Source of the DNA: Beijerinckiaceae bacterium
GTDB taxonomy: Bacteria > Pseudomonadota > Alphaproteobacteria > Rhizobiales > Beijerinckiaceae
Direction of reading: 5' to 3'
Length of the DNA stretch: 57,109 nucleotides
NCBI GenBank assembly: GCA_947453205.1
Contig: CANGFT010000021.1
Location: 1-57,109 of the forward strand
In this document: piece after piece, positions 29,201 through 51,700 of the stretch
How positions within the stretch are numbered: the first letter of the stretch is position 1
How the letters are laid out: each line of letters starts with the position of its first letter
Notes under the pieces: generated by a model
The model's database searches: none
What the model saw: only the letters and a program-made list of their open reading frames with translations
What the model was told of the DNA's origin: nothing
Translations under genes and position numbers: made by a program

Positions 29201-29406
29201 GGGTCGCTCCGGCGCCGGCGCCGGATGTGGCGCCGCAGGTTGGTGGCGGAAGTTAGAAGCCTCATTCGGCGGGTACAAGAGGGTGGGCGCGCAAATATGG
29301 GCTCGCCGCAGGCCCGTATATCGACAGGAGCCTTCAGGCGTGCTATCCGTCTTAGAGGCCTAAGATGTTGCGCGTCAAGGCGCGCGGCTATGCGCAGGAG
29401 GAGCCC

Positions 29407-30714
29407 ATGCTCACCAAAGAGGAAAATATCGCCCTCACCCATATCGAGGGCGATGCGCCCATGGGCGGCGTGATGCGCCGACACTGGCTGCCCGCCTGCC
29501 TCTCCGAGGAGGTCGCCGAGCCCGACTGCGATCCGGTCAAGATCCGCCTTCTGGGCGAGGATCTCGTGGTCTTCCGCGATTCCGAGGGCCGCGTTGGCGT
29601 GCTCGATGAATTCTGCCCGCACCGCAAGGCCTCGCTCGCCTTCGGCCGCAACGAGGAATGCGGCCTGCGCTGCCTCTACCACGGCTGGAAGTTCGATGTG
29701 GACGGCAACACCGTCGACATGTCGTCGGAGCCGCCCGAGAGCACGCTCAAGGAGAAGGTGAAGCAGAAGGCCTATCCGACCCATGAGGCCGCCGGCTTCA
29801 TCTGGGTCTATATGGGCCCGGCCAATGAAATGCCCGCCTTCGATCCGCCGGTCTTCCAGCCGACGCCTGACACGCGCATCGCGATCTCCAGGGTGATTGT
29901 GGATTGCAACTGGGCGCAGATTCTCGAAGGCGCCATCGACTCCGCTCATTCCTCGACGCTGCATTCATCGGACATGGTGCCCGCGCGCGTCGATGGCGCG
30001 AAGGCGACGGACAACAACTGGCTGCGCCCCTCCACCGACAAGGCGCCGCGCCTTTTCGTCGACCGCACCGCCTTCGGTTTCCGTTATTCGGCCATCCGGC
30101 GCCCCATCAACAACGCCGCGACCCATGACTATGTGCGCACGACTTTGTTCATCGCGCCCTACACAGTCCAGATACCCTCCAACAACATGTATAACATCGC
30201 CATCCTGCATGTGCCGATCGACAACACCCATACGGCCTTCCACTTCATCGCCTGGGGCGGGGTGAATACGCCCAGCACCGAAAGCTGGCGCAAGTTCCTG
30301 CATGCGCAGGTCGGCATCGACGTGGACAAGAGCTTCCGCAAGGTGCGCACCCTCGCCAATAACTATCTGCAGGACCGGCAGGCCATGCGGCTCGGCAATT
30401 TCACGGGCGTGCCGGGCATTCCCAATCAGGACATCGTGATGTGGGAGACCATCGGCGCCATCGCGGACCGCAGCGACGAGATTCTTGGCGCGAGCGATCT
30501 GGCCATCGTCGAGTTCCGCCGCCAGATGGTCGAGGCCGCCGCAACCTTCGCAGCCACCGGCAAGGCCATCGGCGCCCATGAGGGCCGCGTGCCCCACGGC
30601 AAGCTTCATTCCTTCGAGGGCGTGGTGCAGAAGGGCTATGATTGGCGCACGCTGGGCTGTTCACCAGAAGAGCTTGCGTGGAACGCTGCGCATCATGCGA
30701 ACGCCGCTGAATGA
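29407..30714 (+). CDS. Rieske non-haem iron oxygenase, phthalate 4,5-dioxygenase-like alpha subunit
   Basis: A 435-residue oxygenase. Rieske [2Fe-2S] ligands C70-P-H72 and C89-L-Y-H92; mononuclear iron site E174-G-A-I-D178-S-A-H181-S-S-T-L-H186, where D178 bridges adjacent subunits. The overall pattern is that of the phthalate dioxygenase/toluate O-demethylase group, which uses a PDR-type reductase directly. The start at 29407 follows AGGAGGAG; a longer frame from 29365 lacks support. It is the only plus-strand gene between 19.7 and 36.3 kb, so it has its own promoter in the 206-bp divergent region. The substrate is probably an aromatic carboxylate. Confidence 0.94.
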   Translation: MLTKEENIALTHIEGDAPMGGVMRRHWLPACLSEEVAEPDCDPVKIRLLGEDLVVFRDSEGRVGVLDEFCPHRKASLAFGRNEECGLRCLYHGWKFDVDGNTVDMSSEPPESTLKEKVKQKAYPTHEAAGFIWVYMGPANEMPAFDPPVFQPTPDTRIAISRVIVDCNWAQILEGAIDSAHSSTLHSSDMVPARVDGAKATDNNWLRPSTDKAPRLFVDRTAFGFRYSAIRRPINNAATHDYVRTTLFIAPYTVQIPSNNMYNIAILHVPIDNTHTAFHFIAWGGVNTPSTESWRKFLHAQVGIDVDKSFRKVRTLANNYLQDRQAMRLGNFTGVPGIPNQDIVMWETIGAIADRSDEILGASDLAIVEFRRQMVEAAATFAATGKAIGAHEGRVPHGKLHSFEGVVQKGYDWRTLGCSPEELAWNAAHHANAAE

Positions 30715-30784: not shown

Positions 30785-31642
30785 TCAGTCGATGACGATG
30801 TCGAGGCCGAGGTCGAGGATGGGCGCCGAATGGGTGAGGGCGCCGGATGAGACGAGGTCGACGCCGGTTTCGGCGATGACCTTCACAGTTTCGAGATTGA
30901 CGCCGCCGGAGGCCTCGAGCTTCACGCGGCCAGCCGACATCTTTACAGCCTCGCGCATCATGTCCACGCTCATATTGTCGATCAGGCAGAAGTCCGCGCC
31001 TTCATCCAGCACTTCGCGCAGCTGATCGAGAGTGTCGACCTCGATTTCGATCTTCACGAGATGGCCCACAAAGGCCTTCGCGGCGCGCAGGGCCTCGCGC
31101 ACGCCGCCGCAGACGGCGATGTGGTTGTCCTTGATGAGCACGGCGTCGTCGAGGCCGAAGCGATGGTTCATGGCGCCGCCGCAGCGCACCGCATATTTTT
31201 CAAAGGCGCGCAGGCCCGGCGTCGTCTTGCGGGTGCAGCAGATATTGGCGTTGGTGTGGGCGACGAGGTCCACATATTTCGCCGTCAGCGTCGCGATGCC
31301 CGACATGCGCGACATATAGTTCAGCGCGGTGCGCTCGGCGGTGAGGATCGCGCGGGCGTCGCCAGACACGCGGGCCACGGGCGTGCGGTTGCCCGGAACT
31401 TTCGCGCCATCCTCGACCAGCGCTTCGAAGCGCACGCTCGGGTCGATGGCGCGGAAGACGGCTTCGGCGACGGGCAGGCCGCAGACGACGCCGGGCTTGC
31501 GCACGGCGAGCACGGAGGTCGCCTGCTTGCCCGGCGGAATCGTCGCCAGCGTGGTGATGTCGCCCGCGCGGCCGAGATCCTCGTCGAGCGCGGCGCGCAC
31601 GGCGTTTTCGAGATAGATCGGGTTGAAGAAGCTCATGGCCAT
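30785..31642 (-). CDS. nadC: Nicotinate-nucleotide pyrophosphorylase (quinolinate phosphoribosyltransferase)
   Basis: A 285-residue protein with the NadC signatures: E-D-L-G-R-A-G-D-I-T-T near the N-terminus, T-A-E-R-T-A-L-N-Y, CTRKTTPGLRAFEKYAVRCGG, H-R-F-G-L-D-D-A-V-L-I-K-D-N-H and the C-terminal E-A-S-G-G-V-N. It converts quinolinate and PRPP to nicotinate mononucleotide, CO2 and PPi. AGGGGAG precedes the ATG. It starts 16 bp after the Pht5-like decarboxylase gene, clearly co-transcribed, and no nadA or nadB is nearby. A biosynthetic gene stranded in a catabolic cluster, or a paralogue with a role in pyridine-carboxylate metabolism, are both possible. Confidence 0.94.
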   Translation of the reverse strand: MAMSFFNPIYLENAVRAALDEDLGRAGDITTLATIPPGKQATSVLAVRKPGVVCGLPVAEAVFRAIDPSVRFEALVEDGAKVPGNRTPVARVSGDARAILTAERTALNYMSRMSGIATLTAKYVDLVAHTNANICCTRKTTPGLRAFEKYAVRCGGAMNHRFGLDDAVLIKDNHIAVCGGVREALRAAKAFVGHLVKIEIEVDTLDQLREVLDEGADFCLIDNMSVDMMREAVKMSAGRVKLEASGGVNLETVKVIAETGVDLVSSGALTHSAPILDLGLDIVID

Positions 31643-31658: not shown

Positions 31659-32642
31659 TCAGACGCGGAAGCCGCCGCGCTTGCGGCCCTGGGACACGTT
31701 CAGGAACAGTTCGTCCAGCGGCCAGCGGCGCTTCAACATGCCCTGTTCATGCGAATAGCCGACGAGCGTGTCGAGGTTGTGGCGGTTGGCGTCGGAGAGC
31801 CCGTATTCCCAGGGGTCTTCGCCCAGCAGCCTGCGCTGCTCCTCGAGGGCGTGGCGATACCAGGCGAGCGGGGCGATGCGCGGGTTGAACATGCGCTTCA
31901 TGCCGATGGCCTTGGCCTTGTCGAAGGCCTTGTACAGATTGACGGGCACCCAGGGGTAGCGCTCGACGATCTCGCGCTTGATCCCCATGACATGCATGAT
32001 CGGGAAGATGCCGGTCTTCTTGAAGTAGCTTTCCTCCTCGGCCTTGTAGTCGTCGAAGAGGCGCCCGACATTCGGATCGCCCTGCAGATAGGGCTCGATG
32101 ATGTCGGAGTGGATGACGGCGTCGAGCTCGCCCGCGACCAGCATCTCTTCAAGCGTCTGGTCGTCCGAAAGGCGCGTCCATTTCAGGTCGGGCGCAGGTG
32201 TGAACTCCACATCCTCGTCGATCTCGGAATGCCAGTGGATCGACTTGTGGGGCACGCCATATTCATGTTCGAGAATGCCGCGCATCCACAAGATCGCGCT
32301 GACCTGAAAGGACTTCACGCCGACCTTCTTGCCGATGAGATCCTTGGGGCTGCGGATGCCCTTCTTCGTGTTCACGAAGACGAATTCATGGCGGAAGCGG
32401 CGATGCAGGAAGACGGGGATGCCCTCGATCTCCATGCCATTGTCGCGCGCCAGCAGATAGGAGGACGCCGAGACCTCCGCCACATCGAATTCGCGGTTGC
32501 GCAGGAAACGCCAGTGGCGGGTGCTGGAATCGATGTCGGTGAGGACGGTCAGATCGACGCCATCCACCTTGACCGCGCCCTCCTTGAGCGCGCGAACGAT
32601 TTCATAATCGCCACAAGCCAGCGTCAGATGGATGTTCGACAT
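31659..32642 (-). CDS. 4,5-dihydroxyphthalate decarboxylase-like protein (Pht5-like)
   Basis: A 327-residue protein with a periplasmic-binding-protein fold but no signal peptide. The start at 32642 (MSNIHLTLACGDYEIVRAL) is preceded by AAGGGGAA. It shows the Pht5-type features L-A-C-G-D-Y, T-D-I-D-S-S-T-R-H-W-R-F-L-R-N-R-E-F-D, D-L-I-G-K-K-V-G-V-K-S-F and H-V-M-G-I-K-R. Pht5 decarboxylates 4,5-dihydroxyphthalate to protocatechuate, and lack of a signal peptide fits a cytoplasmic enzyme. With the nearby Rieske oxygenase, reductase and Gfo/Idh dehydrogenase it completes a phthalate-like module. The exact substrate remains unproven. Confidence 0.85.
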   Translation of the reverse strand: MSNIHLTLACGDYEIVRALKEGAVKVDGVDLTVLTDIDSSTRHWRFLRNREFDVAEVSASSYLLARDNGMEIEGIPVFLHRRFRHEFVFVNTKKGIRSPKDLIGKKVGVKSFQVSAILWMRGILEHEYGVPHKSIHWHSEIDEDVEFTPAPDLKWTRLSDDQTLEEMLVAGELDAVIHSDIIEPYLQGDPNVGRLFDDYKAEEESYFKKTGIFPIMHVMGIKREIVERYPWVPVNLYKAFDKAKAIGMKRMFNPRIAPLAWYRHALEEQRRLLGEDPWEYGLSDANRHNLDTLVGYSHEQGMLKRRWPLDELFLNVSQGRKRGGFRV

Positions 32643-32682
32643 GCGGTTCCCCTTGGATTTCACGGCTGGAGTTTGTAAGCAG

Positions 32683-32708
32683 AAAAGCTCCCCTCCGCGG
32701 AGGGGAGC
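32683..32708 (-). terminator. Terminator after the bicupin gene
   Basis: A 22-bp perfect palindrome (GCTCCCCTCCG followed by CGGAGGGGAGC, 32687-32708) is followed on the minus strand by TTTTCTG. It lies about 22 bp after the bicupin stop and separates it from the decarboxylase-nadC pair. Confidence 0.85.
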
Positions 32709-32730
32709 CTGCCTGATGGGCGTCTGAGCC

Positions 32731-33840
32731 TTACTTCGTGAAGAATTTGTCCATCTTCTGCTCGACGCCGTATTTCCTCGTCTCCTCGATCCAGATCTGC
32801 TGGATGCGCGGATCCTGATCGTCATATTCGTACTGGTCGCCGCCTTCCTTGATGCTGGTGGAGACAGCGCCCTTTTCGCCGGGCTTGAGGCCGAGCAGCG
32901 AGCGGCGCTGCTGCACGGTCAGCGGATAGCGCAGGCCGCCGACGCCCGTGGCGAGATAACGCGCAGGCTCCGGGCTCGTGTTGAAGTGCTGGTGGAACTG
33001 CTGATCGGCGGGCGGGAACACGACGCCATGCTTCCAGTCAATGCGCAGGAAGTCCTGATCCTTGTCGAACCACAGCAGGGAATAGCCGTGGCCGGTCACG
33101 CACATGACGTGGAAGCCCGGACCATGGCGATGGCCCTTCTTGTAGGTGCCGACCGGCATTTCCGAGATATGGGCGTGCATGGTGCCGTCCGCGAGGACGA
33201 ACATGATGTTGGTGCCGCCGGCGCCGCGATCGCCCCAGCTCTTCAGCTCGATGCCCGCGAGGTCGGGAACGAAGTTCGTCTCCCACATATGGTTGCCCGG
33301 CCGCACGGTGATGAGGTCGCCCTCGCCGCTGTAGTAGCCGCTCTTGCCGGCGCGTTCGGAGAAATCGAAGGTGGTGTCGAAGACGAATTTCTCGTTATGG
33401 AAGGTGTTCATCACCAGCGGCATGTCGGTGGTGGTGACCAGCAGAGCGCGCTCGCGTCCGCTTGAATTGAAGTGCCGGTGCTTGGCGTTCAGCGGAATGG
33501 CGAAGAGGCTTTTCGGACCCCATTCGAAGCTGCGCTTGGTTCCGTCGGCGAGCTCGACCTGCGTCGAACCTGTGCCTTCCAGCACATAGTAGACGTCTTC
33601 GTAGAGATGGCGCTGGGGCTCTGTGGAGCCGCCCGGCGGCAGCTCCATCAGGAACATGTTGCAGAAGTCGCCGCGGCCCTTGAGATGCACGGCGGCGCCC
33701 TTGACGCCGATGCGCGGCCACAGCTTCATCTCGACCTTGAAGAGATCGATGCCATAGTCCTCGGTGACCGGCAGGCCTTCCTTGGCGATCCAGTCGAGAT
33801 AGGGGTCGATGCCGTAGCGGGCGGGGGTGCTTTCGCTCAT
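32731..33840 (-). CDS. Bicupin protein, possible ring-cleaving or modifying iron enzyme
   Basis: A 369-residue protein with two cupin domains. The N-terminal one (about 60-130) has a weakened metal site: Q76-R-H78 in place of HxH, with E81, then H121/H123. The C-terminal one (about 218-290) has H237-R-H239 and H244 where Glu is usual, then H283/H285, a three- to four-His site like that of gentisate-type dioxygenases. The start at 33840 follows AAGGAT. It lies 16 bp after the eutA-like gene. A catalytic role in aromatic ring cleavage is an inference; a sensor or isomerase role is possible. Confidence 0.82.
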   Translation of the reverse strand: MSESTPARYGIDPYLDWIAKEGLPVTEDYGIDLFKVEMKLWPRIGVKGAAVHLKGRGDFCNMFLMELPPGGSTEPQRHLYEDVYYVLEGTGSTQVELADGTKRSFEWGPKSLFAIPLNAKHRHFNSSGRERALLVTTTDMPLVMNTFHNEKFVFDTTFDFSERAGKSGYYSGEGDLITVRPGNHMWETNFVPDLAGIELKSWGDRGAGGTNIMFVLADGTMHAHISEMPVGTYKKGHRHGPGFHVMCVTGHGYSLLWFDKDQDFLRIDWKHGVVFPPADQQFHQHFNTSPEPARYLATGVGGLRYPLTVQQRRSLLGLKPGEKGAVSTSIKEGGDQYEYDDQDPRIQQIWIEETRKYGVEQKMDKFFTK

Positions 33841-33856: not shown

Positions 33857-35362
33857 TTATGAAAACAGCAGGGATTTGATGACGACGGGGACGACGCCCG
33901 GCGGCGTGATGAGCTCGCCGACGTCGACATAGTCGAGCTCCTGAAGCTGCACGCCGTCGATGGAGACGAGGTCTCCGGGGAAGTCGAGCTCCTTCACCAG
34001 CAGATTGCCCATGCTCTTGCCGACGTCGCCGTCGATCATCAGGAGCAGGAGGTCGTGACGCTTGCCGCCCGGCGCCGCCCCGTCAAGGATGCCCTTGGCG
34101 ATGGCGTGGAGGCGCTTGTATTCGGGGTCGCCCGCGAAGCTGAAGGAGACCGCCATGCGCCCGCCCGGGGGAATGTCGAGCTGCTCGGCCTTGTCGCGGA
34201 TCGCCTGCGCGATCGCGGCGGAATCGATCTCGCCTGACAGGTCGAGGCCGATGGGCGCCACGGGCACATTATGGACGGGAAGAGCGTCGCCCTTCGACAG
34301 GAAGATCGTCTTGCCGCTGACCTGCACGGTGAATTGCGAGGCGCCGATCACCGTGGCGCGGATGCGGTTGCCCGGATCGACCACCGCCACCTTGCTGCGC
34401 GCGCTGAGCAGGCGGCGCGTCTCCATGGCGATGATCTTGGCGATGTCGCCGAAGTCGCGGGTTTCCGTCTCGAAAATATATTCGGACACGCCGCCCGAGA
34501 AGGTGATGGCGTCCGGCGCCTTGCTGCGCGCCAGCGGCTCGGTGAGCTGCAGCTCGCGGCCAAGCGCGTCGAGCTCCGCGCCCGTGATCTGGTCGACCGC
34601 GATTTCGGCGAGGCGCGCGGCGATGCGTTGGCGCACCGCAGGATCGCCAAGCGTTTTGGCATCCGTGCCGATCCCCAGCTCGCGCGCGACGAGCCAGGCC
34701 GACTGGTCGACGCGCGTCCACTCGCCATTGGCGTCGGCCGCAAGCAGGCGACCACCCACGGCGAAAGCCGAAACGCTTTTGATGACGCCTTTTTCGATCT
34801 GGGCGAGCTTCGTCGTGCCGCCGCCGATGTCCACATGCAGCACCGTGCACTGGCGCTCGCGCGAGAGGGCCACCGCGCCCGAACCATGGGCGGCGAGGGT
34901 GCATTCGAGCTTGTGGCCCGCCGTGGCGCAGACGAATTTGCCCGCCTCGTTGGCGAAGAGTTCGTCGATGGCGCGCGCATTCTTGCGCTTGATCGCCTCG
35001 CCCGTGAGGATCACCGCGCCGCTGTCGATGTCGGCGCGCTTCACGCCAGCCTGCTTGTAGGCGTCATGGATGAAGTGATCGAGCGCATGGGCGTCGATGG
35101 AGCCGTCGGAGACGAAAGGCGTCAGCATGATCGGCGAGCGCCAGACGACCTCGCGATTGGTGACCACGAAGCGGCTCGACAGGCCCTGCGACTGGCGTTG
35201 CAGCGTGACCTTGGCGAAGAGCAGGTGGGAGGTGGAGCTGCCGATATCGATGCCGACCGTGTTCAGCTCGACGCTCTCCTGGCTCCAGATGAACTTGGCC
35301 ATCTCGGCCTTGTCGGCCTCGCTCAGTTGGGCGTGCTCGTGTTCGAAATCGATGTCGTGCAT
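33857..35362 (-). CDS. EutA-like ethanolamine ammonia-lyase reactivase (orphan)
   Basis: A 501-residue ASKHA ATPase-fold protein. It has the phosphate-1 motif V-G-I-D39-I-G-S-S-T-S, the segment G-A-V-I-L-T-G-E-A-I-K-R-K-N-A-R typical of EutA (about residue 117 on), phosphate-2 H-V-D-I-G-G-G-T-T-K and V-G-G-R-L-L. EutA exchanges damaged cobalamin bound to ethanolamine ammonia-lyase, using ATP. No eutB, eutC or other cobalamin lyase lies in the window. The ATG at 35362 has AGGGG about 7 nt upstream; a GTG three codons earlier is the alternative. It is 16 bp upstream of the bicupin gene, so the two are co-expressed. Its client here is unknown. Confidence 0.85.
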   Translation of the reverse strand: MHDIDFEHEHAQLSEADKAEMAKFIWSQESVELNTVGIDIGSSTSHLLFAKVTLQRQSQGLSSRFVVTNREVVWRSPIMLTPFVSDGSIDAHALDHFIHDAYKQAGVKRADIDSGAVILTGEAIKRKNARAIDELFANEAGKFVCATAGHKLECTLAAHGSGAVALSRERQCTVLHVDIGGGTTKLAQIEKGVIKSVSAFAVGGRLLAADANGEWTRVDQSAWLVARELGIGTDAKTLGDPAVRQRIAARLAEIAVDQITGAELDALGRELQLTEPLARSKAPDAITFSGGVSEYIFETETRDFGDIAKIIAMETRRLLSARSKVAVVDPGNRIRATVIGASQFTVQVSGKTIFLSKGDALPVHNVPVAPIGLDLSGEIDSAAIAQAIRDKAEQLDIPPGGRMAVSFSFAGDPEYKRLHAIAKGILDGAAPGGKRHDLLLLMIDGDVGKSMGNLLVKELDFPGDLVSIDGVQLQELDYVDVGELITPPGVVPVVIKSLLFS

Positions 35363-35526: not shown

Positions 35527-36273
35527 TCAGATCTGCCATTCGGCGGGAACGACGCCCGCCGTCTGCCAGCACTCGAGGTAATAGCGCCAGAGCTTGTCCA
35601 CATGGCGGTCGCGCTTGAAATATTTGGCGAAGGATTCCATGTCCGCGTCGCTCAGGGGCGCGAGGCGGCCGAGCACGCAGGCGTTGTGCATGGCCTGGGC
35701 GTTCTCCACGAAATGGATGGAGTCGGTCAGCACCGCCTCCACCGATTCGGCGGTGATGACCTGCCCATGGGCGCGGATCTGCATGGCGTGATGGGGCCCG
35801 AGCGTGTTGGCCACGGCGCGGCCGAGCTCCGCATTCGCGACATGGGCGGGATCGGGATGCACGGGCATGCCGCTGCGCCAGCGGATGGCGTGGTTCTTGA
35901 CGATGCGCAGCGGCATGTCCTCGACCAGGGTGAAGGAATTGGTGAGGTCGTGGTGGAAATGGGCGACGCTGTTGACGTCCGGCCGGGCCCGCAGGATCTC
36001 CGCATGGAGCGCCGTTTCCGCCGGGGGCTTCGAATCCCCGTTGCCGCGCACCACCTCGCCATCGAGGTTGCAGACCAGAAGATCGTCAGGCCGCAGGCCC
36101 GAACGGGGAACGTCGATGGGCTGGATGAGGAAGGTGTCTCCGCCGGGCAGGCGACCGCTCACATGGCCTGAGTAATTCATGCATTTTTCGTTCACCAGCA
36201 TCAGCGTGCAGGCGGCGACCTTCATGCGCAGCACATATTCGGCGTCATTCTGGCTGTGTTGGGCGTTGTTCAA
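35527..36273 (-). CDS. Class II aldolase/adducin-family protein, possible hydroxyaromatic-carboxylate decarboxylase
   Basis: A 248-residue protein with a TTG start at 36273 (NNAQHSQND). GGGAGG sits 6 nt upstream of that TTG and no in-frame ATG has a comparable site before the conserved fold begins. Class II landmarks are N-Y-S-G-H-V-S-G-R-L-P-G, the catalytic P-P-A-E86-T, zinc ligands H105-F-H107 and a later R-A-H-G-Q-V. The family includes fuculose aldolases and also 3,4-dihydroxyphthalate decarboxylase (PhtC). In this setting decarboxylation of a dihydroxy-aromatic acid is plausible but unproven. It is the first gene of the minus-strand cluster. Confidence 0.87.
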   Translation of the reverse strand: MNNAQHSQNDAEYVLRMKVAACTLMLVNEKCMNYSGHVSGRLPGGDTFLIQPIDVPRSGLRPDDLLVCNLDGEVVRGNGDSKPPAETALHAEILRARPDVNSVAHFHHDLTNSFTLVEDMPLRIVKNHAIRWRSGMPVHPDPAHVANAELGRAVANTLGPHHAMQIRAHGQVITAESVEAVLTDSIHFVENAQAMHNACVLGRLAPLSDADMESFAKYFKRDRHVDKLWRYYLECWQTAGVVPAEWQI

Positions 36274-38644: not shown

Positions 38645-39139
38645 ATGGGTCAGGACACGCAGGCTCCCCTGTCTTTCGACGAGGGACGGGCGCTGGAGAT
38701 CATTGGGGGGCTGGCGCATCTTGAAGGCGCTATGCTGCCGATCCTCCACGCCTTGCAGGACGCGTTCGGCCATATCGACGCGCGCATGGTTCCCCTTGTG
38801 GCCTCGGCGCTGAATGTGTCGCGCGCCGACGCCCATGGCGCGGTCAGCTTCTATCATGATTTCCGCGACGCCCCCGCCGGGCGCCATGTTCTGCGCATCT
38901 GCCGGGCGGAATCCTGTCAGTCCATGGGCTGCGAGCGTCTGGTGGAGCATTTGCGCCACACGCATCGTTTGACCCCCGGCGAGACCACCGCCGACGGCGC
39001 GCTGACCCTCGAAAACGTCTATTGCCTCGGGCAGTGCGCCCTGTCTCCCGCAGCCCTTGTCGATGGCGAACCCGTGGGGCGGCTTGATGAGAAGCGGCTC
39101 GACGCCCTGCTTGGCCAGTTGAAGGGGGCGAGGGCATGA
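38645..39139 (+). CDS. fdsG: NAD-dependent formate dehydrogenase gamma subunit
   Basis: A 164-residue NuoE-like subunit carrying one [2Fe-2S] cluster with ligands C86, C91, C127 and C131. The motifs read C-R-A-E-S-C-Q-S-M-G-C and Y-C-L-G-Q-C-A-L-S-P. It passes electrons between FdsB and FdsA in the soluble cytoplasmic formate dehydrogenase, which oxidises formate to CO2 and makes NADH. First gene of fdsGBACD, overlapping fdsB by 4 bp. Typical length. Confidence 0.95.
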   Translation: MGQDTQAPLSFDEGRALEIIGGLAHLEGAMLPILHALQDAFGHIDARMVPLVASALNVSRADAHGAVSFYHDFRDAPAGRHVLRICRAESCQSMGCERLVEHLRHTHRLTPGETTADGALTLENVYCLGQCALSPAALVDGEPVGRLDEKRLDALLGQLKGARA

Positions 39140-40707
39140 GCGCGCGCATCTTCGTTCCCGCCGATTCATCCGCCCTTGCGGTGGGCGCCGAAGCCGTCGC
39201 GCGCGCCATCGCCAAGGAGGCGCGCGCGCGGGGCCTTGCGGTCGAGATCGTGCGCAACGGGTCGCGCGGGATGGTCTGGCTGGAGCCCCTTGTCGAGGTC
39301 GAGACGCCGCAGGGACGCATCGGCTATGGGCAGGTCAGCGCGGGCGACGCTCCCGCTCTTTTCGACGCGGGCTTTCTGCAGGGGGGCGAACACCCCGCGC
39401 GCTTGGGCAAGGTCGAGGATCTCGACTGGATGGCCCGCCAGCAGCGCCTGACTTTCGCGCGCTGCGGTGTGATCGACCCGCTTTCGCTCGAGGACTACCG
39501 CGCCCATGGGGGCTTTGACGGCCTCAAGCGCGCGCTCGCCATGGCGCCCGCCGAAGTGGTCGAGGAGGTCGTCGACTCTGGCCTTCGCGGACGCGGCGGG
39601 GCTGGTTTTCCCACGGGGATCAAATGGCGCACGGTGGCGGGGGCGGAGGCCGACCGCAAATATGTCGTCTGCAATGCGGATGAGGGCGACAGCGGCACAT
39701 TCGCCGACCGCATGCTGATGGAGGGCGATCCCTTCACCCTCATCGAGGGCATGACCATTGCGGGCCTGGCGACAGGCGCGACAAAGGGCTTCGTCTATAT
39801 CCGCAGCGAATATCCCCACGCCTTCCGCGCCATGCAGCGCGCCATCGACGCCGCGCGCGCGGGCGGTTGGCTCGGCGCTGATGTCGCAGGCTCCGGCCGC
39901 GCTTTCGACATGGAGGCGCGGCTTGGCGCAGGCGCCTATGTCTGCGGCGAGGAGACCTCGCTTCTGGAAAGCCTCGAAGGGCGGCGCGGGCAGGTGCGCG
40001 CCAAGCCGCCGCTGCCTGCGGTGCAAGGGCTTTTCGGCAAACCGACCGTCATCAACAATGTCCTCTCGCTGGCGAGCGTCCCCTGGATCCTCGCTCATGG
40101 CGCCAAGGCCTATGCGGATTTCGGCATGGGGCGCTCGCGTGGCACGCAGCCCTTCCAGATCGCGGGCAATGTGAAGCGCGGCGGCCTCGTGGAGCTCGCC
40201 TTCGGCGTGACGATCCGCGAGCTGGTGGAGGATTTTGGCGGCGGCACGGCGAGCGGGCGCAAGCTGCGGGCGGTGCAGGTCGGCGGACCGCTCGGCGCCT
40301 ATTTTCCCGAGGCCTTGCTCGACACGCCCCTTGATTATGAAGCCATGCTCGCCGCCAAGGGCATGCTCGGCCATGGCGGGCTCGTGGCCTTTGACGACAG
40401 CGTCGATCTTGCGAAACAGGCGCGTTTCGCCATGCAGTTCTGCGCCATCGAAAGCTGCGGCAAATGCACGCCCTGCCGCATCGGCTCCACACGCGGCGTC
40501 GAGGTCATCGACAAGATCGTGGCCGGCGTCGCGCGCGACAAGAACAGGGAGCTGCTGCTCGACCTCTGCGACGCCATGACCGATGGCTCGCTCTGTGCGC
40601 TGGGCGGGCTGACGCCCATGCCTGTGCTCAGCGCGCTGACACATTTTTCTGAAGATTTCGAGCGCAAGGCGCCCGCGCGCCAGGCTGCTGAACAGGTGCG
40701 CCCATGA
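39136..40707 (+). CDS. fdsB: NAD-dependent formate dehydrogenase beta subunit (NADH/FMN site)
   Basis: A 523-residue NuoF-like subunit with an extra N-terminal thioredoxin-like region (about 1-120), as in FdsB. The NADH/FMN segment G-R-G-G-A-G-F-P-T-G-I-K-W and N-A-D-E-G-D-S-G-T-F are present. The [4Fe-4S] ligands are C441-G-K-C444-T-P-C447, with a fourth Cys near S-L-C-A-L-G-G. It reduces NAD+ with electrons from formate. It overlaps fdsG and fdsA by 4 bp each, so translation is coupled. Confidence 0.97.
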   Translation: MSARIFVPADSSALAVGAEAVARAIAKEARARGLAVEIVRNGSRGMVWLEPLVEVETPQGRIGYGQVSAGDAPALFDAGFLQGGEHPARLGKVEDLDWMARQQRLTFARCGVIDPLSLEDYRAHGGFDGLKRALAMAPAEVVEEVVDSGLRGRGGAGFPTGIKWRTVAGAEADRKYVVCNADEGDSGTFADRMLMEGDPFTLIEGMTIAGLATGATKGFVYIRSEYPHAFRAMQRAIDAARAGGWLGADVAGSGRAFDMEARLGAGAYVCGEETSLLESLEGRRGQVRAKPPLPAVQGLFGKPTVINNVLSLASVPWILAHGAKAYADFGMGRSRGTQPFQIAGNVKRGGLVELAFGVTIRELVEDFGGGTASGRKLRAVQVGGPLGAYFPEALLDTPLDYEAMLAAKGMLGHGGLVAFDDSVDLAKQARFAMQFCAIESCGKCTPCRIGSTRGVEVIDKIVAGVARDKNRELLLDLCDAMTDGSLCALGGLTPMPVLSALTHFSEDFERKAPARQAAEQVRP

Positions 40708-43550
40708 CCCTCATCAAGGAAGTGGACTACGGAACGAAGCTCGCGGCCAGCGCCACGATGGTCACGCTCACCATCGACGGGGAAAAGGTCACCGTGCCCC
40801 AGGGAAGCTCGGTGATGGCGGCGGCGATGAGCATGGGAACGGCGATCCCCAGGCTCTGCGCGACCGACATGCTTGACGCCTTCGGCTCCTGCCGCCTGTG
40901 CCTTGTGGAGATCGAGGGACGGCGCGGCGCGCCCGCCTCCTGCACGACGCCTGCGGAGGAGGGCATGGTCGTGCATACGCAAAACGCGCGGCTCGCCAAA
41001 CTGCGCAAGAGCGTCATGGAGCTCTATATCTCCGACCATCCGCTGGATTGCCTCACCTGTCCGGCGAACGGCGATTGCGAGCTGCAGGACATGGCGGGCG
41101 CGGTCGGCCTGCGCGACGTGCGCTATGGCTACGCGGGCGCAAACCATCTTGATGGCGCGAAGGATGAGAGCAATCCCTATTTCGCCTTTGATGAATCCAA
41201 ATGCATCGTCTGCTCGCGCTGCGTGCGCGCCTGCGCCGAGGTGCAGGGCACTTTCGCGCTGACGATTCAGGGGCGCGGTTTTGATTCCAAAGTGTCGTCG
41301 GGCGGCGTTGATTTCCTATCGTCCGAATGCGTCTCCTGCGGCGCCTGCGTGCAGGCCTGCCCGACGGCTTCGCTGACCGAGAAATCCATCATCGAAATGG
41401 GCCAGCCCGAACATTCGAAGGTCACGACCTGCGCCTATTGCGGCGTCGGCTGCTCCTTCAAGGCGGAGATGCAGGGCGAACGTGTGGTGCGCATGGTTCC
41501 CTACAAGGACGGCAAAGCCAATGAGGGCCATAGCTGCGTCAAGGGCCGCTTCGCCTATGGCTACGCCACCTCGAAGGACCGCATCACCAGCCCCATGATC
41601 CGTGCGGCCATCACCGATCCCTGGCGCGAGGCCTCATGGGAGGAGGCCTTCGCCCACGCGGCCCGCGAGTTCCAGCGCATTCAGGCGAAATATGGCCGCG
41701 ATTCCGTGGGCGCCATCACCTCCTCCCGCTGCACGAATGAAGAAGTCTTCGTCATGCAGAAGCTGGTGCGCGCGGGCTTCGGCAACAACAATGTCGACAC
41801 CTGCGCGCGGGTCTGCCATTCCCCCACCGGCTATGGCCTCAAGATGGCCTTCGGCACATCGGCGGGGACGCAGGATTTCAAATCGGTCGAGAAAGCCGAT
41901 GTGATCCTTCTCATCGGCGCCAATCCCACCGACGCCCATCCTGTCTTCGCCTCCCGCATGAAGCGGCGGTTGCGCAAGGGCGCCAAGCTCATCGTGGCCG
42001 ATCCGCGCCGCATTGATCTCGTGAAGTCGCCCCATGTGCGCGCGGCCTGTCATCTGCCGCTGCTGCCGGGCTCCAATGTGGCGATGATCAATGCGCTCGC
42101 CCATGTCATCGTGACGGAAGGCCTCGTCAATGAGGCCTTCGTGCGCGAGCGTTGCGATCTCGCGGCGTTTGAAAACTGGGCGCGCTTCATCGCCGATCCC
42201 GTCAACTCCCCCGAAGCCGTCGAGGCGATCACCGGCGTCGCGCCAGCAGACATGCGCGCCGCCGCAAGGCTCTTCGCCACCGGCGGCAATGGCGCCATCT
42301 ACTATGGCCTTGGCGTCACCGAACACAGCCAGGGCTCCACCATGGTCATGGGCATGGCCAATCTCGCCATGGCCACAGGCAACCTTGGCCGCGAGGGCGT
42401 GGGCGTGAATCCCCTGCGCGGGCAGAACAATGTGCAGGGCGCCTGCGACATGGGCTCGTTCCCCCATGAATTCTCGGGCTATCGTCATGTCTCCGATGAC
42501 GCGACGCGCGAGATGTTCGAATCGCTCTGGGGCGTGACGCTTGACCGTGAGCCGGGCATGCGCATTCCCAACATGCTCGACGAGGCCGTGGCTGGCGGCT
42601 TCAAGGGCATCTATGTGCAGGGCGAGGACATCGCCCAGTCCGACCCCGACACCCAGCATGTCGTCGGCGGGCTGGAGGCCATGGAATGTGTGATCGTGCA
42701 GGATCTCTTCCTGAACGAGACCGCCAAATATGCTCATGTCTTCTTTCCCGGCGCCTCCTTCCTCGAAAAGGATGGCACCTTCACCAATGCCGAGCGCCGC
42801 ATCAACAGGGTGCGCAGGGTCATGGCGCCCATGGCGGGGCTGGCGGATTGGGAGGTCACGCTCGGCTTCGCGAAGGCGCTCGGCGTCGACATGCGTTACG
42901 ATCATCCCTCCGACATCATGGATGAGATCGCCAGGCTCACGCCGACCTTCCGCAATGTCTCCTATGCGAAGCTTGAGGAGCTCGGCTCCGTGCAATGGCC
43001 CTGCAACGAGGCGGCGCACATGGGCACGCCCGTCATGCATGTCGATCATTTCGTGCGCGGCAAGGGCCGCTTCATGCTGACGCAATTCGTGCCGACGCAG
43101 GAGCGCGCCGGGCCTTTGTTCCCGCTGCTGCTGACCACCGGCCGCATCCTGTCGCAATACAATGTCGGCGCGCAGACGCGGCGCACCCTGAACAATGTCT
43201 GGCATGGGCAGGACATGCTGGAGATCCACCCCTTCGACGCCGAGAGCCGCGGCATACGCGAGGGCGACCTCGTGGCTTTGACAAGCCGCATCGGCGAGGT
43301 GTCGTTGCGCGCCACGATCACCGACCGCATGCAGCCCGGCGTCGTCTACACCACTTTCCATCATCCGGAGTCCGGCGCCAATGTGGTGACGACCGATCAT
43401 TCGGACTGGGCCACCAATTGTCCGGAATACAAGGTCACCGCGGTGCAGGTCCGACGCACGAATTATTTCTCCTCATGGCAGGACCATGATCGTGAAACCG
43501 GCGTATCGCTGCGCCGCATCGCACGCGAGGGCGCAGATGCCGCAGAATGA
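40704..43550 (+). CDS. fdsA: NAD-dependent formate dehydrogenase catalytic alpha subunit (Mo/W-bis-MGD)
   Basis: A 948-residue catalytic subunit. It has an N-terminal [2Fe-2S] domain with C-R-L-C; a His-Cys3 cluster in H-P-L-D-C-L-T-C-P-A-N-G-D-C; a two-cluster ferredoxin domain (C-I-V-C-S-R-C-V-R-A-C and C-V-S-C-G-A-C-V-Q-A-C); and the C-A-Y-C-G-V-G-C [4Fe-4S] site of the molybdopterin domain. The metal ligand is C371 followed by H372 (V-C-H-S-P-T), so this is a cysteine rather than selenocysteine enzyme. It oxidises formate to CO2. It is followed by fdhD and fdsD. Confidence 0.97.
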   Translation: MTLIKEVDYGTKLAASATMVTLTIDGEKVTVPQGSSVMAAAMSMGTAIPRLCATDMLDAFGSCRLCLVEIEGRRGAPASCTTPAEEGMVVHTQNARLAKLRKSVMELYISDHPLDCLTCPANGDCELQDMAGAVGLRDVRYGYAGANHLDGAKDESNPYFAFDESKCIVCSRCVRACAEVQGTFALTIQGRGFDSKVSSGGVDFLSSECVSCGACVQACPTASLTEKSIIEMGQPEHSKVTTCAYCGVGCSFKAEMQGERVVRMVPYKDGKANEGHSCVKGRFAYGYATSKDRITSPMIRAAITDPWREASWEEAFAHAAREFQRIQAKYGRDSVGAITSSRCTNEEVFVMQKLVRAGFGNNNVDTCARVCHSPTGYGLKMAFGTSAGTQDFKSVEKADVILLIGANPTDAHPVFASRMKRRLRKGAKLIVADPRRIDLVKSPHVRAACHLPLLPGSNVAMINALAHVIVTEGLVNEAFVRERCDLAAFENWARFIADPVNSPEAVEAITGVAPADMRAAARLFATGGNGAIYYGLGVTEHSQGSTMVMGMANLAMATGNLGREGVGVNPLRGQNNVQGACDMGSFPHEFSGYRHVSDDATREMFESLWGVTLDREPGMRIPNMLDEAVAGGFKGIYVQGEDIAQSDPDTQHVVGGLEAMECVIVQDLFLNETAKYAHVFFPGASFLEKDGTFTNAERRINRVRRVMAPMAGLADWEVTLGFAKALGVDMRYDHPSDIMDEIARLTPTFRNVSYAKLEELGSVQWPCNEAAHMGTPVMHVDHFVRGKGRFMLTQFVPTQERAGPLFPLLLTTGRILSQYNVGAQTRRTLNNVWHGQDMLEIHPFDAESRGIREGDLVALTSRIGEVSLRATITDRMQPGVVYTTFHHPESGANVVTTDHSDWATNCPEYKVTAVQVRRTNYFSSWQDHDRETGVSLRRIAREGADAAE

Positions 43551-44379
43551 CCGGGCGCCCGCGCTCACCCAGCCCATCACGCGCTTTTCTTTCACCGGCG
43601 CGCCCGAAGAGGGGGCGCGCGAATGTGCGGTGGAGATTCCCGTCAACATCGTCTATGCGCCCGTGCCCTATGCGGTGATGATGGCGACGCCGCAGGATCT
43701 TGAGGATTTCGCGCTGGGCTTCAGCGTGAGCGAAGGCGTCATTGACGGCCCCGCCGACATCCGCTCAATCGTGGTCGAGGAAGCGGAGCAGGGGCTGCGG
43801 GTCGTGGTGACCCTCGCCTCCGAAAAATTGCAGCGCCATCTCGCCCGCACGCGCAATCTGGCGGGGCGCACAGGCTGCGGCCTGTGCGGCGTCGACGACC
43901 TCTGCGCCCTGCCTGTGGCGCGCGGCCCTGACCATGGGCCGGGCCATCTGAAGCTCTCCAGCGTGCGCCGCGCGCTGCACCTGCTCGACGAACGCCAGAC
44001 GCTCAACCGCCGCGTCCGCGCCCTGCATGGCGCAGCATGGGCGGATCATTCCGGCGAACTGCACCTCATGCGCGAGGATGTCGGCCGCCACAATGCGCTC
44101 GATAAATTGATCGGCGCCTTGCTGGGGCAGGGCGTCGATCCCGGCAGCGGCTTCATCGTCATCACCAGCCGCTGCTCCTATGAAATGGTGGAGAAGGCGG
44201 CGGTCTTTGGCGCACGCGCCCTTGTCGCGGTCTCCGCGCCGACCACCCTCGCCATCGCCCGCGCGAAGGCCAACGCCATGACCCTTCTGGCGCTCGCCCG
44301 CAATGACGGCGCGCTTTGCTTCACCGACCCATCATTCGTGATCGACGACCTGCAGGCGCAAGGAGCGCGCATCGCATGA
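43537..44379 (+). CDS. fdhD: Formate dehydrogenase accessory sulfurtransferase FdhD (FdsC)
   Basis: A 280-residue protein that transfers sulfur to the bis-MGD cofactor of formate dehydrogenase. The characteristic C114-G-L-C117-G motif is present, followed by a C-terminal region with E-D-V-G-R-H-N-A-L-D-K and T-S-R-C-S-Y-E-M-V. The start at 43537 (MPQNDRAPAL) overlaps fdsA by 14 bp; the frame extends further upstream inside fdsA without support. It overlaps fdsD by 4 bp. Confidence 0.95.
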   Translation: MPQNDRAPALTQPITRFSFTGAPEEGARECAVEIPVNIVYAPVPYAVMMATPQDLEDFALGFSVSEGVIDGPADIRSIVVEEAEQGLRVVVTLASEKLQRHLARTRNLAGRTGCGLCGVDDLCALPVARGPDHGPGHLKLSSVRRALHLLDERQTLNRRVRALHGAAWADHSGELHLMREDVGRHNALDKLIGALLGQGVDPGSGFIVITSRCSYEMVEKAAVFGARALVAVSAPTTLAIARAKANAMTLLALARNDGALCFTDPSFVIDDLQAQGARIA

Positions 44380-46896: not shown

Positions 46897-47889
46897 ATGT
46901 CCAAGCCCGCCGCATTCGCCACGACCCTCGACGCGCTGGAGGCGGCGGGCGAAATCACGCGTCTGCGCTTGCTGGCCTTGCTCGCGGACGCCGAGCTCAC
47001 CGTTTCCGAACTCATGACGATTTTGGGCCAATCCCAGCCGCGCATTTCGCGCCATCTGCGGCTGCTGGTGGAGGCGGGGCTGGTGGATCGGCGGCGCGAG
47101 GGCGCCTGGGCCTTCTTCCGCCTCGCCGATCACGGTCCCGCCGCAGGCCTCGTGCGCGCGGTGCTCAGCCGCATGGATCAGGGCGACCCTGTCCTCTCAA
47201 GCGACCGTTCGCGCCTGACCGAGGTGCGCCGCGCCCGCGCCGAACAGGCGCAGCGTTATTTCGCCGAACAGGCGCCCAACTGGGACCGCATCCGTTCACT
47301 GCATATCGCCGAGAACATCGTGGAGGCCGCCGTGCGCGAGATGGTCGGCGACAAGCCGCTGCACGCCATGCTCGACCTTGGCGCGGGCACCGGGCGCATG
47401 CTCGAGCTTCTCGCGCCGCTGGCCGAACGCGCCGTGGGCGTTGACCAAAGCCCGGCCATGCTGAATGTCGCGCGCACCAATCTCGAGCGCGCGGGCCTGC
47501 GCCATGTGCAGATGCGGCAGGGCGATCTTTATGCGCTGCCGGTGGAGCGCAACGGCTACGATCTCGTCACCATCCATCAGGTGCTGCACTATCTCGATGA
47601 CCCCGGCCGCGCCGTGCGCGAGGCCGCCCATGCGCTGGCGCCGGGCGGACGGCTGCTCATCATCGATTTCGCGCCCCATGCGCATGAGTTCCTGCGCGAG
47701 CAGCACGCCCATCGCCGCCTTGGATTCTCCGGCGAGGAGATTGAGGGCTTCATGGCTGAGGCGGGGCTTGTCGACGTCATGCGCCGCGATCTTGGACCCG
47801 GCGCGGGCGACAAGCTCACGGTCTCGATCTGGCTCGCCCACGACCCCCGCATGGTCGCCGATGAGGTCAAGTTGAAGGAGATTGCGTGA
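46897..47889 (+). CDS. ArsR-family regulator fused to SAM-dependent methyltransferase domain
   Basis: A 330-residue fusion. Residues about 10-85 form an ArsR winged helix (L-T-V-S-E-L-M-T-I-L-G-Q-S-Q-P-R-I-S-R-H). Residues about 145-300 form a class I methyltransferase domain with M-L-D-L-G-A-G-T-G-R-M and G-V-D-Q-S-P-A-M-L. The gene overlaps metF by 1 bp (TGATG). Proteins of this type beside metF/metH are candidates for the SahR role, sensing S-adenosylhomocysteine or SAM to control the methionine cycle. The methyltransferase fold may therefore act only as a ligand sensor. ATG at 46897 was chosen over the TTG just before it. Confidence 0.9.
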   Translation: MSKPAAFATTLDALEAAGEITRLRLLALLADAELTVSELMTILGQSQPRISRHLRLLVEAGLVDRRREGAWAFFRLADHGPAAGLVRAVLSRMDQGDPVLSSDRSRLTEVRRARAEQAQRYFAEQAPNWDRIRSLHIAENIVEAAVREMVGDKPLHAMLDLGAGTGRMLELLAPLAERAVGVDQSPAMLNVARTNLERAGLRHVQMRQGDLYALPVERNGYDLVTIHQVLHYLDDPGRAVREAAHALAPGGRLLIIDFAPHAHEFLREQHAHRRLGFSGEEIEGFMAEAGLVDVMRRDLGPGAGDKLTVSIWLAHDPRMVADEVKLKEIA

Positions 47890-48794
47890 TGGCTCACGAC
47901 TTTCGGCGCCCCAGCCGCTCGCCCCTCGCCAATATCCGCGTCTCCTTTGAATTCTTCCCGCCAAAGAGCGCGGAGATGGAAGCTGCGCTCTGGGACGCCA
48001 TCACGCGCCTTGAGCCGCTTGATCCCAGCTTTGTCTCCGTGACCTATGGCGCTGGCGGCTCCACGCGCGAGCGCACCCATTCAACGGTCGCGCGCATCGT
48101 GCGCGAAACCTCGCTGAAGCCTGCGGCGCATCTCACCTGCGTCGCCGCCACGCGCGAAGAGGTTGATGAGGTCGTGCGCGCCTATCATGCCGCGGGCGTG
48201 CGCCATATCGTGGCCCTGCGCGGCGATCCCGTGAGCGGGCCGGGCAGCGTCTATGAGCCCCATCCCGGCGGCTACGCGACCTCGACGGCTCTGATCGAGG
48301 GCATTCGTCGCCAGGGCGATTTCGAAGTCACGGTCTCGGCCTATCCCGAGAAGCACCCCGAAAGCGCCACGCTCGACGCCGACATAGATGTGCTGAAGGC
48401 CAAGGTCGACGCCGGCGCCACGCGCGCCATCACCCAGTTCTTCTTCGATAACGCCCATTACCTGCGTTATGTCGAGCGCGTGCGTGCGCGCGGCATCAAC
48501 ATTCCCATCGTTCCGGGCATCGTGCCCGTGCAGAACTTCCGGCAGACCGCGAGCTTCGCCAAAAAGACCGGCGCCAGCGTGCCGCAATGGCTGGCGGATC
48601 GTTTCGAGGGGCTGGAGGAGGATCCCGCCACGCGCCGCCTCATCGCCGCCGCCGTCGCAGCCGAACAGGTGCTGGACCTCGTCGATCACGGCGTCACCGA
48701 CTTCCATTTCTACACCATGAACAAGGCCGATCTCGTCTATGCGATCTGCCATTTGCTGGGCTTGCGTTCTCATCTGACCGAAAGGGCCGCGTGA
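47889..48794 (+). CDS. metF: Methylenetetrahydrofolate reductase
   Basis: A 301-residue FAD enzyme reducing 5,10-methylene-THF to 5-methyl-THF, the methyl donor for MetH. Landmarks are S-F-E-F-F-P-P-K (N-terminal strand with the catalytic Glu), [25 protein letters not shown] and T-Q-F-F-F-D-N. It overlaps the upstream ArsR gene by 1 bp and metH by 1 bp, so the three are one operon. Typical length. Confidence 0.97.
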
Positions 48795-51700
48795 TGGCGA
48801 GTTTCAAGATGGCTGACGGCAAGGCGGCGCGCGCCGCGCTGACCCAGGCCGCGCGCGAACGCATTCTCGTGCTCGACGGCGCCATGGGCACGATGATCCA
48901 GGATCTGCGCCTCGACGAAGCGGGCTTTCGGGGCGCGCTCTTTAAAAACGCCGAGCGTGATCTGCGCGGCAACAACGATCTTCTCAACCTCACCCAGCCC
49001 GACGCCATCCGCGACATCCACCTGAAATATTTTCTCGCCGGCGCCGATCTCGTGGAGACCAACACCTTCTCCTCCACCTCGATCGCGCAGGCCGACTATG
49101 GGCTCGAGGCCCATGTCGTCGATCTCAACCGCACAGGCGCGCGGCTCGCCCGCGAGGCGGCCGATCTCGCCGAGGCGCAGGACGGGCGCCGTCGCTTCGT
49201 CTGCGGCGCCATCGGCCCCACCAACCGCACGGCCTCCATGTCGCCCGATGTCAACGATCCCGGCTTTCGCGCCGTCTCATTCGACGAATTGCGCGTCTCT
49301 TATGGCGAGGCGGCGCAGGCCTTGATCGAAGGCGGCGCTGACGCCATCCTGCTTGAAACCATCTTCGACACATTGAACGCCAAGGCCGCGCTCATCGGCG
49401 TGTGGGAGGCGTTCGACAGGCTGGGCTCGCGCCTGCCGATCCTGTTGTCGGGCACCATCACCGATCTTTCGGGCCGCACCCTGTCGGGCCAGACGCCGGC
49501 CGCCTTCTGGCATTCTCTGCGCCATGCGGAGCCTTTCGCCGTCGGCTTCAACTGCGCGCTGGGCGCGCGCGAATTGCGCCAGCATGTGGCGGAGATTTCG
49601 CGCATCGCCGACACATTCACCCTCGCCTATCCCAATGCGGGCCTGCCCAATGAATTCGGCCTCTATGACGAGAGCCCCGAATATATGGCGGGGATGCTCG
49701 GCGAATTCGCTGAAAGCGGCCTCCTCAACATCATCGGCGGCTGCTGCGGCACCACGCCCGCCCATGTCGCGGCCTTCGCCGACCGCGTGAAGGGCATGAG
49801 CCCGCGCCGTCCGCCCAAGGTCGAGCCGATGCTTCGGCTCTCCGGCCTCGAGCCCTTCACGCTCACCAAAGACATCCGCTTCGTCAATGTGGGCGAGCGC
49901 ACCAATGTCACGGGCTCCGCGCGGTTCCGCAAGCTCATCAAGAACGGCGAATATGCCGCCGCCCTTGATGTGGCGCGCGAACAGGTCGCCAATGGCGCGC
50001 AGATCATCGACATCAACATGGACGAAGGCCTGCTTGATTCGCAGCGCGCCATGGTGGACTTTCTCCATCTCGTCGCCTCCGAGCCCGACATCGCCCGCGC
50101 GCCGATCATGGTCGATTCCTCGAAATTCGAGGTGATCGAGGCCGGCCTGAAGTGCATCCAGGGCAAGGCCGTGGTGAACTCCATCTCCCTCAAGGAGGGC
50201 GAGGCGAAATTCATCGAACAGGCGCGGCTCGTGCGCCGCTATGGCGCAGCCGTCGTGGTCATGGCTTTCGATGAAGCCGGACAAGCCGACACCTTCACCC
50301 GCAAGGTCGAGATCTGCGAACGCGCTTACAAGGTGTTGACGCAGGAAGTCGGCTTCCCGCCCGAAGACATCATCTTCGACCCCAACATCTTCGCTGTGGC
50401 CACCGGCATCGAAGAACATGACAACTATGGCGTCGATTTCATCGAGGCCACGAAGGCCATCCGTGCGCGCCTGCCCCATGCCCATGTGTCCGGCGGCGTG
50501 TCCAATCTGTCCTTCTCCTTTCGCGGCAATGACCCCGTGCGCGAGGCCATGCATTGCGTGTTCCTGTTCCACGCCATCGAGGCGGGGCTCGACATGGGCA
50601 TCGTCAACGCCGGCGCCTTGCAGGTCTATGAGAAGATCCCGCCCGAACTGCGCGAGGCCTGCGAGGATGTGGTGCTCAACCGGCGCGCGTACGCCACCGA
50701 GCGCCTGCTCGCCATCGCCGACACGTTCAAGGGCAAAGGCGTCGAGGCCCGGGAGAAGGATCTCGCCTGGCGGGAGCAGCCCGTCGACAAGCGCATCGAA
50801 TACGCCCTTGTGAACGGCGTCACCGATTTCATCGAGGAGGATGTGGAGGAGGCGCGCCTTGCCCTGCCGCGTCCGCTCGATGTGATCGAGGGGCCGTTGA
50901 TGGCGGGCATGAATGTGGTGGGCGACCTCTTCGGCGCCGGCAAGATGTTCCTGCCGCAGGTCGTCAAATCCGCCCGCGTGATGAAGCAGGCCGTCGCCGT
51001 GCTCATGCCCTATATGGAGGCGGAAAAGGCTGCGGGGGGCGCGGGGCGCTCAAGCGCGGGCAAGATCCTCATGGCCACCGTGAAGGGCGATGTGCACGAC
51101 ATCGGCAAGAACATCGTCGGCGTCGTGCTCGCCTGCAATAATTACGAGATCATCGACCTTGGCGTCATGGCGCCCGCATCGAAAATTCTGGAGACCGCGC
51201 GGCGCGAGAAGGTCGATGTCATCGGCCTCTCCGGCCTCATCACGCCCTCCCTTGATGAAATGTGCTTCGTGGCGAGCGAGATGGAGCGCGAGGGCTTCGA
51301 CGTTCCGCTGCTGATCGGCGGCGCCACCACGAGCCGCGTTCATACGGCGGTGAAGATCCATCCCAATTACCAGCGCGGCCAGAGCGTCTATGTCACCGAC
51401 GCCAGCCGCGCCGTGGGCGTCGTCTCGGCGCTGCTGTCGCCGGACACGCGCGAGGGCTATGTGGAGACCCTGAGGGCGGAATACCGCAAGGTGGCCGAGG
51501 CCCATGCGCGCGCGGAAAGCGAAAAGCAGCGTCTGCCGCTCGTCCGCGCAAGGGCCAACGCCCTGCGCACGGACTGGGCCGCCTATCAGCCGCCAAAGCC
51601 GCTCTTCACGGGCACGCGCACATTGCGCAGCTATGACGTCGCGGAGCTCGCCCCCTATATCGACTGGACGCCCTTCTTCCAGACCTGGGAGATGAAGGGC

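Follow-up and report, generated by a model that had tools for sequence, protein, structure and literature searches.

The window analysed here, a 57,109-nucleotide stretch from a Beijerinckiaceae genome of 4.2 Mb, carries on its minus strand a EutA-like gene with a bicupin gene directly downstream of it (Table 1). The product of the EutA-like gene matches the Pfam EutA family (PF06277) at full length, with 377.9 bits (E 1e-112, cut-off 27) over 469 residues that cover profile positions 2-474 of 475, and is 36% identical to E. coli EutA (K-12 record) over 478 columns. A chance open reading frame is ruled out by this 378-bit family match, and the sequence-only reading that the protein is related to EutA holds. 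The closest named relative, among the matches listed, comes from an uncultured Rhizobiales whose EutA is 95% identical. The protein also carries the sequence pattern of an ASKHA ATPase, with two phosphate motifs and an adenosine motif in columns that are mostly invariant across 38 sequences. Nevertheless, all four NCBIfam EutA equivalog models are missed, at 319.8, 268.1, 234.4 and 200.7 bits against cut-offs of 598, 769, 799 and 952 respectively. Judged by its sequence, the protein is a member of the EutA family but lies outside the ethanolamine ammonia-lyase reactivases by the tests applied here, that is by equivalog cut-off, by EutB in the genome and by position in the tree.

Table 1. Features of the window around and beyond the EutA-like gene
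Feature	Position	Strand	Basis and remarks
EutA-like, predicted ASKHA-type ATPase, 501 aa, cupin-linked clade	33857..35362	-	PF06277, NCBIfam models, tree; ATG at 35362, stop ends at 33857
N-terminal His-rich stretch HDxDxxHxH	35333..35362	-	Alignment A2; E. coli protein without such a stretch
Phosphate-1-like motif GIDIGSSTSH	35225..35254	-	GSSTSH invariant in 38-row alignment A2
Phosphate-2-like motif DIGGGTTK	34808..34831	-	Columns mostly invariant or nearly so, alignments A1 and A2
Adenosine-motif-like SGGVSE	34481..34498	-	Columns mostly invariant or nearly so, alignments A1 and A2
Bicupin, 369 aa, EutA partner	32731..33840	-	Gentisate/salicylate 1,2-dioxygenase- and oxalate decarboxylase-like fold
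HxH (His 237, His 239), C-terminal cupin	33124..33132	-	Each kept in 99 of 103 aligned bicupins
His 283, C-terminal cupin	32992..32994	-	Kept in 103 of 103 aligned bicupins
Terminator-like hairpin, 11 pairs	32685..32710	-	Directly 3' of bicupin
Class II aldolase/decarboxylase-like gene, upstream of EutA	35527..36249	-	PF00596; NCBIfam PhtC 62.5 bits, below cut-off 200; true start not fixed
NMT1-like gene	31659..32825	-	PF09084 26.6 bits, cut-off 20.5; frame over-long at start
Quinolinate phosphoribosyltransferase (nadC)	30785..31642	-	TIGR00078 330.5 bits, cut-off 198.4
Rieske oxygenase with LigXa_C domain	29365..30714	+	PF19301 488.6 bits
NAD-linked formate dehydrogenase-like genes (Nuo51-like and molybdopterin subunits) with FdhD	39136-44379	+	
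Methylenetetrahydrofolate reductase, beside MetH	47886-48794	+	
B12-dependent methionine synthase MetH	48587-52531	+	Five Pfam domains

The bicupin opens with an ATG at 33840, 16 nt past the EutA-like stop, in agreement with the spacing first claimed. It has the two-cupin fold of the gentisate/salicylate 1,2-dioxygenases, but an HxH...H motif was not found in the N-terminal cupin: position 76 there is Gln, Val, Glu, Ile or Ala in 90 of the 103 aligned bicupins, and His is not among these five commonest residues. Metal sites were assigned by motif spacing, and the alignment holds 103 of the 111 cluster members (330-520 aa), near-duplicates kept. The terminator-like hairpin past the bicupin would close the EutA-bicupin unit, although it is weak by itself, the region having five such sites against a shuffle mean of 4.2. 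Beyond the hairpin lies the NMT1-like gene, which we take to be Pht5-like. The nadC-type quinolinate phosphoribosyltransferase family recurs in 13 of 111 EutA loci, a hint that the substrate or an effector may resemble quinolinate.

Linkage of EutA-like and cupin genes

Loci were pooled from the window, 29 genome stretches and 80 named loci, with four duplicates dropped, to give 112 EutA-like frames. The named loci do not form a random sample, having been kept as those that match the query best. They are the best 80 of at least 574 candidate stretches that encode a relative, so the gene is widespread, with clade membership checked for the 80 that were kept. A bicupin lies within 500 nt of the EutA-like gene in 89 of the 112 loci, and both gene orders occur. 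The other 23 comprise two loci with a bicupin at 1.3 kb, one with a bicupin at 5 kb (L031), ten with UbiD and no bicupin, and ten with neither, nine of these last being no more than 1.2 kb from a contig end. For two loci (L124 and L125), a contig end or a gene in between affects the label given. Divided differently, nine of the 23 have single-cupin genes nearby and nine are near a contig end. Where UbiD directly adjoins EutA and there is no bicupin (eight loci), single-cupin genes lie 11-760 nt away. One of the nine contig-end loci, the copy on contig C101 of the window's own genome, has tandem single cupins, the nearer of them 59 nt upstream. These single-cupin identities come from Pfam matches of one member of the UbiD-loci cluster and two of the C101-type cluster. 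Two loci with ample flanks, L056 and L121, have no cupin-cluster member nearby, on the basis of cluster membership rather than of a Pfam scan.

Anywhere in the locus, a bicupin is present in 92 of 111 loci, a Pht5-like gene in 30 and a LigXa-type Rieske gene in 18. Within the same-strand run that holds EutA, a bicupin is found in 83 of 111 loci, followed by TctC as the next commonest neighbour (20), UbiD (11) and the LigXa-type Rieske gene (4); EutA rows shorter than 440 aa were left out of these neighbour counts, as they were of the tree, the distance correlation and the His counts given below. A specific tie to Rieske or phthalate genes was rejected, as the neighbours vary across loci and the cupin stays, and the role in a Rieske/phthalate-type pathway put forward in the sequence-only reading is not borne out by these counts. 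The Rieske context of the window gene is local, and the usual partner of the EutA-like clade is a cupin. Nor does the description of the gene as an orphan survive: besides its usual partner, the gene has company in a genome that holds four full-length EutA copies.

Other arrangements were also observed. Three or four tandem bicupin genes stand ahead of one EutA gene in L048 (4614-9758), L128 and L134. In the window's own genome, bicupins without an adjoining EutA occur in L172 (4830-6059 and 12716-13918) and L170 (7394-9737), among TctC-type receptor genes; overall, the solo bicupins of this genome sit among TctC, SBP and other genes.

Profiling of the clade against the bicupin, one of the checks proposed at the outset, gave the same presence pattern for both genes. 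Among 385 genomes of the class Alphaproteobacteria, searched with bicupin profile A3 at E <=1e-30, the bicupin occurs in 12, and 11 of these 12 carry a full-length EutA; in the twelfth (G226), the contig ends within the EutA gene next to the bicupin, so that just the start of that gene is present. Pfam EutA matches at E 0.001 are found in 294 of the 385 genomes and exceed the cut-off in 48, full-length matches (at least 353 bits) being confined to the 11, and the next best match spans 49 residues with 37.5 bits. Across 398 genomes of the phylum, at the same bicupin threshold, the bicupin was found only in the window's own genome, and the five other genomes with EutA all bear EutB. Among 151 genomes from the family of G773, the genome of the Rhizobium locus L103, the same three carry EutA and the bicupin (E 1e-20). 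Of 72,556 plasmid records, four have the bicupin (E 1e-20), exactly those with a EutA more than 60% identical to that of the window, and 21 further EutA plasmid records (at most 36% identity, E 1e-40) are without it. With relatedness ignored, Fisher p for the concordance is 2e-20 in the 385 genomes, 1.8e-6 in the 151 and 9e-19 in the plasmids; bicupins remoter than these thresholds are uncounted. In phage records, no bicupin was found at E 1e-10.

In a quick tree of 117 rows, six canonical EutA rows (E. coli and five EutB-bearing genomes) are separated from 111 others by a branch with SH-aLRT 97; two of the canonical rows, L154 and L150, are long branches. By this tree, the window protein belongs to a large clade separate from the EutA of EutB-bearing genomes. 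Pairwise distances of EutA and of the adjacent bicupin are correlated, with a Spearman rho of 0.80 for 41 non-redundant of 82 pairs and a best rho of 0.39 in 2000 permutations. Furthermore, paralogue comparisons, which are not independent, show the closest EutA and the closest bicupin to come from one and the same pair in 168 of 207 cases, against 93.5 expected. The partnership of the EutA-like gene with a cupin is well shown genetically. Where all candidates were scored, bicupin and EutA places number 12 and 4 in the window's own genome (three of the 12 partial), 7 and 4 in G300, and 2 and 2 and 1 and 1, respectively, in the other two of these four genomes. Not all candidates were scored in G773, with four EutA and three full plus one partial bicupin, in G807, with two EutA (one partial) and one bicupin, or in G937, with two of each; class-, phylum- and family-wide copy numbers are lower bounds, 3-13 candidates having been scored per genome. 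A shared helper is not favoured by the copy numbers of every genome, as G773, G807 and G937 indicate.

Histidine-rich tails, metal transporters and B12 enzymes

The window protein has three His in its first 10 residues, and its C-tail is not His-rich. In the 38-row alignment A2, His 2 and His 8 of the N-terminus are nearly invariant. The His fraction is 0.103 before the ATPase core and 0.024 within it; over the clade, three or more His precede the core in 86 of 110 rows, long His-rich C-tails occur in eight, and the His cluster is missing from some members (L044). A NicO transporter gene lies -3 to 11 nt from the EutA-like gene in six loci, and TerC lies about 1.1 kb away in two loci and on one Phyllobacterium zundukense plasmid; metal transport genes are found at a minority of EutA-like loci. 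As a separate observation, UbiD, EutA, NicO and a small cupin stand in a row in L034, L042, L045, L117, L123 and L139, where the other strand has a second small cupin that overlaps the first or lies near it.

The search of the genome for EutB that had been called for was made, and EutB (PF06751) was not found in the 4.2 Mb, with the E. coli control positive. It was likewise not found in any of the 12 genomes of the class that carry the pair, namely the 11 with full-length EutA (the window's own included) and G226, and it occurs in four of 49 further genomes, reached through 50 of the 80 named loci. All five canonical EutA genomes have EutB, with its match 53-68 nt from the EutA match in four of them and 160 nt in the fifth. 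The window's own genome gave no match to the diol dehydratase large subunit (PF02286), and the 12 genomes together gave a single one, of 43 residues, in G306, in a search where none of 14 controls was positive. The search for B12 eliminases covered EutB and this large subunit. The window, originally read as free of B12 lyases, has no EutB; it does hold a B12 enzyme, MetH, but this is a methyltransferase and not a lyase. Service to a distant EutBC-type lyase was rejected as the main reading on these EutB counts, and eutBC in all genomes of the clade, the outcome that the sequence-only reading named as speaking against a new role, is not what was found. The ectoine eutABCDE genes were also set aside as the same system: they share letters with the ethanolamine eut genes, and, going by the description of PMC13188858, eutABC is proposed to act on ectoine derivatives.

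Possible function of the EutA-like clade

The best reading of the EutA-like clade, with a probability of roughly 0.53, is that it uses ATP to reactivate cupin metalloenzymes or to load them with metal; a new role tied to the bicupin, already raised in the sequence-only reading, fits the linkage and the concordance. A EutA-type ATPase and a cupin metalloenzyme would form a two-part system, with the window protein as the ATPase half. The cupin half would usually be a bicupin and, in side branches, the product of single-cupin genes, some beside a UbiD decarboxylase. In PMC5821096, canonical EutA is described as removing damaged cobalamin from ethanolamine ammonia-lyase in an ATP-requiring manner; by analogy, ATP is proposed to drive the opening of the cupin partner. 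In the opened cupin, a metal that is oxidised, wrong or absent, or else a dead-end complex, would be exchanged and the active site reloaded, while the His-rich tails may hold metal. We infer physical contact between the EutA-like protein and the cupin, ATP hydrolysis, and a metal, together with its identity, as the exchanged item. Where UbiD is linked to EutA, it may itself be the client. The observations that speak for this reading are the family, the ATPase motifs, the clade, the linkage, the concordance, the correlated evolution, the absence of EutB, the His triad of the cupin and the His tails, together with the metal transporter genes near some loci and the bicupin and EutA counts of the four fully scored genomes. 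Against it stand the metal transport genes being a minority, the members without the His cluster, the two loci without a cupin (L056 and L121) and the locus with its bicupin 5 kb off (L031).

The two genes may instead encode one enzyme complex, in which the EutA-like protein is an ASKHA-fold kinase subunit that uses ATP to phosphorylate the substrate or activate it in another way, and the cupin carries out the rest of the reaction. Acetone/acetophenone carboxylases and 5-oxoprolinases, with their ATP-dependent substrate activation, are the model for such an arrangement. EutA belongs to the same superfamily, as weak Pfam matches to BcrAD_BadFG and FtsA suggest, tight linkage and co-evolution fit a complex equally well, and copy numbers are near-equal in G381, G122, G773 and G937. 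The copy numbers of G773 and G807 shift weight towards a complex and away from the reactivase or loader. However, a complex is unlikely for three reasons: first, bicupin places outnumber EutA in the window's own genome, even with partial places among them, and in G300; second, the closest named kin is a reactivase, E. coli EutA; and third, the partner type varies between bicupins and single cupins.

Less probable still is a general chaperone, which, like Hsp70, would help cupin oligomers to fold or assemble and would have nothing to do with metal or damage. The ASKHA ATPases include chaperones, and the cupin partner is conserved; when the EutA-like protein was compared by sequence with solved structures, the only matches were short ones, due to the superfamily or to chance, with weak ones to MreB, FtsA and DnaK. 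Nevertheless, the His-rich tails, the metal transporters in some operons and the kinship with EutA point to cofactor handling. It is very improbable that the pair merely co-travels as members of the same catabolic islands: catabolic genes and carboxylate transporters are frequent neighbours, but the cupin is retained where these other genes change, each of the two gene orders is seen repeatedly, the presence pattern is the same in three samples, co-evolution extends to the level of paralogues, and the same-strand run consists only of EutA followed by the bicupin in 13 loci and only of the bicupin followed by EutA in nine. That the protein is an ordinary reactivase for a B12 lyase encoded at a distance is strongly disfavoured, for despite the EutA family match, the MetH of the genome and the four EutB-bearing genomes of 49, the EutB and PF02286 results within the scope of those searches, the four equivalog cut-offs missed by far and the cupin linkage all argue against it.

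If the EutA-like clade does use ATP to reactivate cupins or load them with metal, damage-prone or metal-fragile cupin enzymes would have a repair system of their own, powered by ATP, and the EutA fold would serve cofactor exchange in general, beyond B12. More tentatively, and with slightly less than an even chance, EutA-type ATPases may form a class of repair machines recruited from B12 to the exchange and reloading of cupin metals, in which a few ATPases serve many paralogues in some cells and side branches have been redirected to single cupins or UbiD. The EutA-bicupin pair offers a genetic handle on an uncharacterised bicupin family in catabolic clusters. No report of a EutA-cupin pairing was found in the literature searched, with most subscription papers outside its coverage. 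Of the four plasmid records of the clade, the one with a listed annotation calls its copy "ethanolamine ammonia-lyase reactivating factor", a name suggesting ethanolamine use in a clade that mostly lacks EutB.

Compared with known systems, the window protein is like E. coli EutA in belonging to the same family over its full length and in keeping the nucleotide-site motifs. The cupin-linked clade differs from canonical EutA in that EutB is mostly absent, in its separate position in the tree, in its cupin partner and in its His-rich N-terminus; its first motif is mostly GSSTSH, whereas five of the six canonical rows have GTTTTQ (within DIGTTTTQ or DVGTTTTQ). The diol and glycerol dehydratase reactivases (DdrA/PduG) carry out an ATP-driven exchange of a damaged cofactor; by description, this idea is shared with the reading preferred here, but their client is a B12 enzyme. 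Gentisate/salicylate 1,2-dioxygenases bind iron in the N-terminal cupin, whereas the partner bicupins have the intact HxH...H in the C-terminal cupin and mostly Gln, Val or Glu at the position of the first N-terminal His. Finally, HypB, UreE and SlyD are His-rich metallochaperone NTPases and helpers of a fold family different from that of EutA, and with these the clade shares His-rich tails, here on a predicted nucleotide user that sometimes stands beside a NicO-type transporter.
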